Source: Candidatus Eremiobacterota bacterium (GTDB taxonomy: Bacteria; Vulcanimicrobiota; CADAWZ01; Ess09-12). Taken from it: DNA of 33,153 bases. The position numbers and the translations under genes were made by a program. Shown here one piece after another: positions 8,848-32,336 of the stretch. How positions within the stretch are numbered: position 1 is the first letter of the stretch; every line of letters begins with the position of its first letter. The notes beneath the pieces were generated by a model, which ran no database searches, had not been told where the DNA came from, and worked only from the letters and a program-made list of their open reading frames with translations. Where the stretch lies: contig JAVHLM010000048.1 in the NCBI GenBank assembly GCA_031082125.1, forward strand, positions 4,653-37,805. The letters are read 5' to 3'.

Positions 8848-8873
8848 GGCAGGAGAAAATATTTTCTCCTGCC
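8848..8873. other. 26-bp perfect palindrome abutting a stop codon
   Basis: The sequence from GGCAGGAGAAAAT to its exact reverse complement (13 bp per arm, no spacer) directly follows the TGA of the cyclic-nucleotide-binding gene (stop at 8876-8874). There is no U-run on either strand after it, so it is not a standard intrinsic terminator. It could be a dimeric protein site or a messenger-stabilising hairpin. Confidence 0.6.
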
Positions 8874-21835: not shown

Positions 21836-21885
21836 AGGGGCAGGTTTCAGGCGACCGGGGTTAATGGGTCAGCTGCTTCATGGGG

Positions 21886-22664
21886 TGACCAATTAGAAGG
21901 AAGGCCGGGGTAATAGGGTTTTTTGCAGTTAAACAGGTCACCTGATGGGTCAGTGAATCGGTCAGGTGACCTATTGAGAGGAACGCGGTGGTTATCGCGT
22001 TTTTTTCTTTTTAGTAGGTCAGTCACTAGGTCACTTTTTGGTCACCTTGATCAACGCATGACCTAGTGGGTGTTCAGATCGGTCATCTGGCGGCAGGGGG
22101 GTGACCTATTGGAATGGAAGGCGTGGTGATGAGGTTTTTTGCACTTTACTGGGTCACTTGATCGGTCATCTGGCAGGGGGGTGACCTATTGAAAAGGATC
22201 CGGTGGTGGTGGGGTTTTTTGTAGTCTATTCGGTCAGGTTGATTGGTCGCTGTTTGGTCACCCTGTCAGGGTATGACCTATTGAGGTGTTCTGATCGGTC
22301 ATCTGGCAGGGGGGTGACCTATTGGAATGGAAGGCGTGATGATGAGGTTTCTTGTCGTTTACCAGGTCACCTGATGGGTCCGGCGATCGGGATGGTGACC
22401 TATTGAAAAGAACGCGGTGGTTATGAGGTTTTTATCGGTTTGATAGGTCCGTCAATTGGTCATCACTCGGTCAGTCCTTCAGCGCATGACCTAGTGACCT
22501 ATTGGAAAGGGTCTGGCGGCCGGGGGGGTGACCCATTGGAAAGAATGCCGGCGCGCCGAGATTTTTTGTGGTTTAATAGGTCAGTGAATAGGTCAGGTGA
22601 CAGGAGAGCTGACCTATTGAAAAAAATGCTATGGTTATGAGGTTTTTATCGGTTTAGTAGGTCA
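21886..22664 (+). repeat. Array 1: eight 55-bp units in a ~214-bp higher-order repeat
   Basis: Eight units of exactly 55 bp each begin TGACC(T)ATT(G) and end GGTCA (GGTCC once): 21886-21940, 21967-22021, 22102-22156, 22182-22236, 22315-22369, 22396-22450, 22529-22583, 22610-22664. The gaps alternate 26, 80, 25, 78, 26, 78, 26 bp, so alternate units start 213-216 bp apart. Each unit has a T-run at about positions 33-39. The long gaps carry two further GGTCA words at 11-12 bp spacing and an inverted TGACC. No open frame of note. The array fills the gap between the sugar aminotransferase and a promoter for an excisionase-like gene. Confidence 0.9.
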
Positions 22665-22746
22665 GGCAATGGGTCATCAACAGGTCACCCCATGAGGATC
22701 TGACAGAAAGGAGAGCCGGGCACTTTTTGCGGCTTTATGCAGCTTA

Positions 22747-29052: not shown

Positions 29053-29363
29053 CGACACAATCACGGAGAGGCTTGAATTTTTGATATTCTGCAAATGGGT
29101 CCGGCAGGCTAGGCCGCCCTTTTTCGGAGCCAGGTTAATGGCGGGCGTGTCTGGCCTGCCGGACCACACCTGAGCTCACAGGCGGCGTAAGGCAGAAGAG
29201 CAGGTCTTTCGGCACCTGGCTCTGTCGAGGGATTGTTGCAGGGTGCCGAGGTAAGTGAAGGCGACCAGGTACGGCAGGCGCCGGGGGCTGTTGAGGGCCG
29301 GCCTGGTGCTGAAGGGGCCTGTACCGGTATTTTGCCCCTTCGGCATGCCCGCTGTTTCGGTGC

Positions 29364-29403: not shown

Positions 29404-29701
29404 AGCCCTCCCTGAGAGCTGGTTCCCCCTTCAGCATTAATGCCCCTCTACCTTAAAGGGGGATGTGCCAAGGAGGGGGTAGTCTGAAGGGGGAAACTGC
29501 GGCAGGGGGGGCGGCAGAGCCTCTATCAGGGCTTACGTTACGCCGAACAGCGAGGCAAAGGCCGGCCCTCAACATGACGCCGAGTACCCAGCCCAACATA
29601 ACCGGCCGACGAGCCTACCCCCGGCAGAGCACCGGGAGCTCAGAGGAAAGGGGGCGGGCGAGGAGGCCGCCTAACAGAGACACGTAAAGGCTTTGTTGTC
29701 G

Positions 29702-29818
29702 CCCTGGTGGCAGTGTGAACAAGCAAGGGGCGAGGCACCGTGACAAAGAGCTTGTTCAAGTCCTGTTGATAAACCTCACCGTCTTCGGTTTATCAACAGG
29801 ACGGCACTGTCACCAGGG
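29702..29818 (+). ncRNA. Candidate structured RNA: three-way junction of 14, 9 and 16 bp
   Basis: P1 pairs 29702-29715 (CCCTGGTGGCAGTG) with 29805-29818 (CACTGTCACCAGGG). Its only non-Watson-Crick pair is G29710 with T29810, a G-U wobble if the plus strand is transcribed and a C-A mismatch otherwise. P2 pairs 29716-29724 with 29750-29758 (TGAACAAGC/GCTTGTTCA, 25-nt loop). P3 pairs 29760-29775 with 29787-29802 (GTCCTGTTGATAAACC and its exact complement, 11-nt loop). Only A29759 and G29803-G29804 are unpaired at the junction. No family recognised, and no reverse transcriptase or nuclease gene is adjacent. It may instead act as DNA (cruciform, replication or recombination site). Confidence 0.55.
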
Positions 29819-30023
29819 GAGGGAGCGTGGGGAAGTGATCCGGGGAGTGGATCATTAGGGTGAACATGGAGGACATTTTCAGAGCATGGCAGGGGGTCTG
29901 GAGAGATTTTTCATGGCAGGGGCGACCTTCACCCCGGGACAAGGGAAAATAGGGCGAAATTTGAAGGGTCTTCGGAAATCCCTTGGCTATGGGCACCGAT
30001 GGGGCAATGAGGGGGCGGTGAGC

Positions 30024-31461: not shown

Positions 31462-31526
31462 ATTCTCGAAACTCGCCTCTATAGTACCATATTGAGAGAG
31501 TTATTTCAAGAAAGAGTTTCGAGAAT
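31462..31526 (-). promoter_or_regulatory. Resolvase promoter enclosed by a 13-bp inverted repeat
   Basis: ATTCTCGAAACTC (31462-31474) and its exact complement GAGTTTCGAGAAT (31514-31526) are separated by 39 bp. Within this gap, on the minus strand, TTGAAA (31509-31504), a 17-bp spacer and TACTAT (31486-31481) form a promoter toward the resolvase gene. Related motifs TTCTCAAAACC (31553-31563) and GGTTTGTGAGAA (31585-31596) form a second, imperfect inverted pair upstream. Together they could be a res-type site. Confidence 0.65.
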
Positions 31527-31697
31527 TTTGAGGGGCTTGAAATGGGAGGGCTTTCTCAAAACCGGGAGGGTTATCGAAAACGAGGGTTTGTGAGAAGACA
31601 TATGGAGGCGGAGAAGGCCTGCTAAAATGGCATTGGGGCAATGCTGCGACAGCAGGAGGCAGCTTGTTTCCTATAGGCCCAGTTCGAGGGGAACCTG

Positions 31698-31793: not shown

Positions 31794-31862
31794 ATCGGAA
31801 GAATTGGGGGATATTCCATGGTACCCTCCGAGCAGGTGGAGCAAATCGGCAGCTCAGAGAGG

Positions 31863-32213
31863 TGACCTATTGAAAAAGATGGCGTGGTGATAGAGTTTTT
31901 TGCATTTTACCAGGTCATCCAATAGGTCAGCGGATCGGGAAGGTGACCTATTGAAAAGGATGCGGTGGTGATGAGGTTTTTCTTGATTTAATAGGTCAGG
32001 CGATGGGTCATTGTGTGGTCAACCCTGTCAGCCTATGACCTGTTGAGGCGCTCAGAGAGGTCACTTGGTAAGGGGGGTGACCTATTGAAAGGAAAGCCGT
32101 GGTGATAAGGGTTTTTAGGGTTTACTGGGTCACCCGATAGGTCAGGCGATAAGAAAGGTGACCTATTGAAAAATATGGTGCGGTGATAAGGTTTTTCTCG
32201 GTTTACCAGGTCA
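31863..32213 (+). repeat. Array 2: four more 55-bp units of the same repeat
   Basis: Units at 31863-31917, 31944-31998, 32078-32132 and 32159-32213, each exactly 55 bp with TGACCTATTG at the start and GGTCA at the end, and gaps of 26, 79 and 26 bp. Alternate units start 215 bp apart, the same higher-order period as array 1. The orientation is the same as in array 1. A partial further unit starts at 32250 (TGACCTATTGA). It lies in front of a promoter region and a small DNA-binding protein gene, as array 1 does. Confidence 0.9.
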
Positions 32214-32336
32214 GGTGCGGGATCATCATGTGGTCACCCCGTCAGCCTATGACCTATTGAATTTTACCATACTTCTGAAAAATTTGCAGGGCGCAAGGTG
32301 ACACATAAAGAAACAGCGCGTTGAAAGCCTGAATAA

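Follow-up and report, generated by a model that had tools for sequence, protein, structure and literature searches.

A strand-specific three-way-junction palindrome carried by unrelated bacterial insertion sequences

The window analysed here is a stretch of 33,153 nucleotides (contig C48, positions 4653-37805) from the genome of a Candidatus Eremiobacterota bacterium, the assembly of which comprises 7.4 Mb in 69 contigs and is 97.6% complete. Direct repeats of approximately 213 bp, built of GTGACCTATTG... units, are located at 21879-22711 (four copies) and 31856-32260 (two copies). They flank a stretch of approximately 9 kb with genes for a ribbon-helix-helix-like protein, a tyrosine recombinase, a PIN-domain protein and a serine resolvase, and seem to mark the ends of a mobile island. 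The resolvase gene is preceded by a 68-nt stretch (31526-31593) that recurs upstream of a resolvase gene on contig C61; on contig C8 it precedes a brnT/copG toxin-antitoxin pair and no resolvase gene is present there, making it a candidate for a res site left behind. Contig C61 shares the resolvase and the repeat described below with the island and in addition encodes a protein with a DisA-type cyclase domain (DACND/DACNH/DAC; L031:9463-10926), which is possibly signalling or defence cargo. Other features of the window are a perfect 26-bp palindrome (8848-8873), a tandem repeat of 46 bp that continues up to the contig end (32887-33153) and a self-complementary repeat (29098-29233) that matches the end of contig C47 with 81% identity; past this match, C47 continues into IS91-associated sequence of contig C44.

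The element under study is located at 29702-29818 on the plus strand and folds into a three-way junction (3WJ) of 117 nt. Helix P1 is formed by 29702-29716 and 29804-29818 and has 14 base pairs plus a U-G pair at the junction; its 3′ arm is the sharp 3′ boundary of the unit shared between family members. The G-U pair at position 9 (G9-U109 in the window copy) is conserved; the U-G pair is at position 15. P2 (29717-29724 with 29750-29757) consists of eight pairs closed by a loop of 25 nt, and P3 (29760-29775 with 29787-29802) of 16 perfect pairs with a loop at 29776-29786; the arms of both helices are supported by the fold and by covariation. A leader of three triplets, TTG-TTG-TCG (29693-29701), recognised by its sequence and its lag-3 periodicity, directly abuts P1. 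The minimum free energy of the unit is −65.2 kcal/mol compared to −34.3 ± 3.8 in dinucleotide shuffles (z = −8.18; 0 of 200 shuffles equal), which rules out a chance hairpin. The minus strand folds slightly less stably (−60.2, z = −7.99). An earlier reading, made from the sequence only, had proposed a near-perfect junction with helices of 14, 9 and 16 bp that is very unlikely to arise by chance. Refolding reproduced the junction at this position as well as the lengths of P1 and P3; P2 is one pair shorter, and the statement that nearly every base outside the loops is used was somewhat generous, given the long P2 loop.

At the gathering score, no Rfam family matched the window or, in relatives, the unit at ten loci, and a permissive search of the region gave matches at chance level only. 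A known RNA family was rejected on this basis. An intrinsic terminator was ruled out for the window copy, which has no T-run, and neither a sigma-70-like promoter nor a terminator was found nearby. Inspection of the flanks of family members by eye likewise revealed no common plus-strand promoter. A protein-coding reading of the ATG downstream of the unit (MEDIFRAWQGVWRDF...) was rejected, since the frame is lost between copies, with seven extra bases in the C8 copy and a stop codon in the C67 copy.

The 3WJ is part of a larger dispersed repeat of approximately 410 nt (29603-30016, plus strand), which the sequence-only reading had lacked. Further copies of this repeat are present on C61, C67 and C8, and a fragment on C4. 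The copies on C61 and C67 contain full-length relatives of the 3WJ (70-74% identity), and the C8 copy is missing the arms of P2 and P3, the join being at a GGC microhomology. The upstream part of the repeat is also found on C44, where it adjoins the gene for an IS91-family (Y2) transposase, the only Y2/IS91 gene found in this genome, and the C4 fragment is colinear with a deleted version of the C44 arrangement; the repeat is therefore IS91-associated. Between the window copy and those on C61 and C67 four pairs in P2 and P3 carry compensated changes, and the 11-nt P3 loop is inverted exactly, that is, the window loop is the reverse complement of the other two. Such an exact inversion is a sign that the element behaves as a hairpin in DNA form.

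A covariance model built from the window, C61 and C67 copies (R1) identified three more distant copies, one on C24 and two on C6, in which P1 is rewritten yet paired. A later model (R3) added a copy on C7, close to an IS110 gene, and a degenerate copy is located on C5. The copies on C61, C67, C24, C6 and C7 sit in unrelated contexts, and some of them are solo intergenic copies. The two C6 copies, C6a and C6b, lie 3 kb apart in unrelated flanks, between which a unit of approximately 147 nt has been copied. They share 148 nt with 95% identity, and the similarity reaches 18-19 nt beyond P1 on the 5′ side and 1 nt on the 3′ side. At a paralogous C6 locus the P1 hairpin alone is left, with a GGCA loop and one compensated pair change. 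Loss of P2 and P3 leaving a P1 hairpin with GGCA has thus occurred at two independent loci (C8 and C6). A clean empty site, free of the entire unit, was not encountered: the arm-less paralogues on C8 and C6 retain P1. Neither a target-site signature nor a target-site duplication was detected for the unit. Pairing of the P2 loop with the 5′ leader in a pseudoknot (GCCGTTG/CAACGGC) was discarded as a general feature, the complementarity being visible by eye in C6 only.

Outside the source genome, R1 matched one copy in a second genome of the same phylum (SZAS-1, G038), and a pattern scan of public genomes recovered true members in Anaerolineae and in one Peptococcaceae genome. The copy from the latter served as a BLAST query that uncovered a variable family on Bradyrhizobium plasmids, some members of which have a P3 of 2 bp or none at all. 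R3 then revealed extra copies in SZAS-1 and in the Peptococcaceae genome as well as matches in 6 of 400 Chloroflexota genomes. The distribution is sporadic, also within the source phylum, where members are present in 2 of 149 genomes; most genomes surveyed are draft assemblies, and very different relatives are missed because the models were grown from the window. No homologue of the window DNA was found on plasmids. A scan of public genomes with the exact P1 pattern yielded nothing except two viral chance matches with weak covariance-model scores, and pattern matches spaced by 44 nt in Gammaproteobacteria failed the covariance model. Altogether, the units range from approximately 60 to 156 nt and make up a previously uncatalogued palindrome family that spans at least four bacterial phyla.

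Compensatory changes in P1 to P3, by which the sequence-only reading had suggested checking the fold, are abundant in an alignment with one member per lineage (16 sequences). In 32 of the 39 base pairs both sides have changed while pairing is kept, a result matched by none of 500 shuffles. Cells changed on both sides number 144, compared to 41 ± 5 in shuffles, and the alignment has a covariation score of 0.631, with shuffled versions scoring 0.183 ± 0.016 and slid ones at most 0.10. Altogether, 94.9% of the alignment cells are paired, an absolute value that is inflated because the alignment is fitted to the model, with the slid and shuffled controls staying far below. When each member was folded, the plus strand was the more stable one in 16 of 17 lineages, and members contain on average 4.4 G-U pairs on the plus strand and 0.9 on the minus strand (17 lineages). 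A single strand of fixed polarity is therefore the selected form. The P1 G-U pair that had been taken as a hint of a plus-strand form is thus real, and this polarity applies to the family in general. Particular G-U pairs are kept (alignment columns 10/238, 20/110 and 17/232), and the junction carries TCCAAG in 13 and CGGCA in 15 of the 17 lineages on the plus strand, and in none on the minus strand. Selection thus acts strongly on the pairing of P1, P2 and P3 alike, and on one strand only. Since G-T pairs also form in single-stranded DNA (ssDNA), the plus-strand polarity fits RNA and ssDNA alike.

Members in unrelated surroundings have in common only the junction and a 5′ leader of approximately 9-20 nt, and the similarity ends at the 3′ foot of P1. 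For example, the copy in a Chloroflexota IS21 and that in a Peptococcaceae IS3 are 74% identical over 104 nt, with the similarity extending 9-10 nt beyond the junction on the 5′ side and 0 nt on the 3′ side. The leaders are built of (YNG)n triplets such as TCG-TCG-TCG, TTG-TTG-TCG or CTG-CTG-TTG, and their lag-3 identity is 0.546 compared to 0.288 ± 0.035 (17 lineages). CGTC or GTAG occurs in the leaders of some lineages (Peptococcaceae, Chloroflexota and one SZAS-1 copy); others have TGTC, AGTC, CGCC or CTG triplets.

Many members are located at the ends of transposase genes. The unit overlaps, or lies up to approximately 50 nt past, the stop codon of istB in IS21 elements (L116, L121, L117, L119, L120 and L098), of orfB in IS3 elements (L054, L074 and L114) and of the transposase gene in an ISNCY element (L118). 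It is antisense to the transposase gene in all ten IS21, IS3 and ISNCY loci examined. Behind a DUF1670 gene (L091) and Rpn-family genes (C6a and C5) it has the sense direction. Together with the copies near IS110 and IS91 genes, this shows that the unit is carried by unrelated mobile elements in several phyla. The sequence-only reading had set its junction against a simple inverted-repeat transposon end; pairing is kept among the homologues, and the unit lies inside the insertion sequences, close to where their last gene ends (3′), and not at the terminal inverted repeats. Its ends match no terminal inverted repeats of the host insertion sequences examined, and the ends of the SZAS-1 IS3 (GTGGACCCCA...) are distinct from the unit and outside it. 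An obligatory part of IS21 or IS3 elements was ruled out: R3 matched none of 11 sampled plasmid loci of these families. Behind the stop codon, seven of these 11 have no hairpin, and four (L122, L123, L129 and L131) have unrelated strong palindromes within 90 nt of the istB or orfB stop codon (z −4 to −6.5). The unit is therefore an accessory module, and palindromes gather behind transposase stop codons, which suggests a general habit of the last gene of IS21 and IS3 elements. Group II intron maturase genes are located within approximately 0.7 kb of three Bradyrhizobium copies (L098, L103 and L107), possibly by coincidence.

With a probability of roughly 0.45, we favour the tentative reading that the window element is one copy in a family of large, leader-tagged, REP-like mobile palindromes that form a single-stranded hairpin and are moved in trans. 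The unit would spread as a hairpin, its strand becoming accessible at the replication fork or in an intermediate of transposition, and an HUH-type (single-strand) transposase would move it in the way proposed for REPs and RAYTs. The region past stop codons may tolerate or favour landing of the unit, which would then hitchhike with the insertion sequence, and the window copy would be a passenger in the IS91-associated repeat on the mobile island. The palindrome more likely acts as ssDNA than as RNA. Against this reading stands that no mobilising enzyme was found, since the source genome has no gene for a Y1 (RAYT-type) transposase (PF01797), and that neither a clean empty site nor a target-site signature was detected. 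The sequence-only reading had left the choice between an RNA with a structured fold and a DNA structure serving replication or recombination; a selected single-strand fold agrees with this, whereas a mobile module common to unrelated transposons was not foreseen.

The antisense placement, the conserved G-U pairs and the high covariation speak against the REP-like reading insofar as they are equally expected of a structured RNA. In that case the plus strand would be transcribed, which in the insertion-sequence copies would give an antisense RNA with its start close to the right end of the element. The 3WJ would be a functional RNA domain, for example a transposase regulator or a stable 5′ domain of an antisense transcript. 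Covariation with conserved G-U pairs on one strand, the conserved junction nucleotides and the constant orientation at the ends of IS21, IS3 and ISNCY genes all point this way and make it a serious rival. It is nevertheless somewhat unlikely, as there is no conserved promoter or terminator, the orientation is sense behind the DUF1670 and Rpn genes, the P3 loop is exactly inverted between copies, Rfam has no match, and the peripheral helices vary down to 2 bp in Bradyrhizobium. The observation of other palindromes behind transposase genes raises the further question whether the unit is just one of many strong hairpins there, which shield or stabilise the mRNA 3′ end or stop transcription and have no identity of their own. 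This explanation draws on the four unit-free IS21/IS3 copies with a palindrome; the seven without one, the identity of the unit in sequence and structure across phyla, the better folding of the strand antisense to the mRNA and the solo copies far from transposases make it very unlikely.

Two other roles of the single strand were considered. As an initiation (priming) site, the ssDNA hairpin would recruit DnaA or primase, with a primer on the 5′ leader, and would be kept to aid second-strand synthesis. The strand polarity and the CTG/TTG/TCG triplets immediately 5′ of the hairpin would suit this, and sequences similar to DnaA boxes (9-mers) are present in 8 of 17 lineages compared to 0.3 in shuffles. 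This enrichment stems largely from the family consensus and does not go beyond it, for which reason a DnaA-box array was rejected as the cause of the palindrome; among 19 (A/G/T)TCCACA sites preceded by T, eight have the TT of the full box, and about half of the lineages have no box. Insertion sequences of the IS21, IS3 and ISNCY types are not known to require a priming site. A precedent for such a site is the DnaA-box hairpin that serves DnaB loading (PMC6127211), and we consider this role quite improbable. The unit could also be a new single-strand cofactor, an RNA or ssDNA 3WJ with its triplet leader, that IS21, IS3 and ISNCY elements recruited independently behind their transposase genes and that takes part directly in transposition or in regulating it; we hold this to be unlikely.

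The REP-like reading invites comparison with known systems. At the ends of IS200/IS605 elements and in the RAYT/REP system, the hairpin is single-stranded, its polarity is fixed and a short leader precedes it on the 5′ side, all of which the 3WJ unit shares. In contrast to these systems, its source genome has no Y1 transposase, its hairpin is far larger and no paired left and right ends were seen; a REPtron (REP plus RAYT), that is, a Y1 gene flanked by the repeats, was not encountered. MITEs and the enterobacterial ERIC and RU elements resemble the unit as non-autonomous intergenic palindromes of approximately 100-150 nt copied around the genome. The 3WJ unit differs in its asymmetry (5′ leader), in ends unlike the inverted repeats of the host insertion sequences examined and in the lack of a detected target duplication; with the SZAS-1 IS3 ends being distinct from it, it is not a MITE of a resident insertion sequence. 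The bridge or seek RNAs of IS110/IS1111 are likewise structured non-coding stretches tied to an insertion sequence, whereas the 3WJ resides in DDE-type IS21, IS3 and ISNCY elements, antisense behind the gene, and also outside insertion sequences, and most sampled IS21 and IS3 elements are without it. In the ABC primosome, a hairpin with a DnaA box loads DnaB onto SSB-coated ssDNA (PMC6127211). This A-site resembles the family in having a stem with a DnaA-box-like sequence on a single strand, and differs from its three-helix architecture and from the half of the lineages that have no box.

Small palindromes of obscure mobility and purpose are common in bacteria. For this family the strand-specific covariation, the sharp boundaries, the periodic leader and the association with transposase ends make the acting strand and the mover directly testable. 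Common insertion sequences would thereby gain a passenger or partner of a new kind, which is overlooked by annotation pipelines. The nearest described class are the GTAG/CGTC REPs. These are scattered over genomes of several phyla, Bradyrhizobium among the hosts, and mostly follow coding regions or separate convergent genes (PMC3733652). CGTC units are single stems of 8-9 bp with loops of 4-5 nt and AT in the first two pairs (PMC3733652); they have no known transposase, and their associations with transposases are reported to be only fortuitous (PMC3733652; Di Nocera et al., 2013). The 3WJ family shares with this class the dispersed palindromes, a tag on one side, with CGTC or GTAG itself in the leaders of some lineages only, and the location behind genes or between convergent genes. 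The GTAG/CGTC REPs are 20-40 bp long with one stem, whereas the 3WJ units have approximately 60-156 nt and three helices, with 14-15 bp in P1, and carry a triplet leader. Because of this size and the number of stems we do not file the family among them; at most it works like one, and unlike the CGTC REPs it is present in low copy number and nested in insertion sequences.
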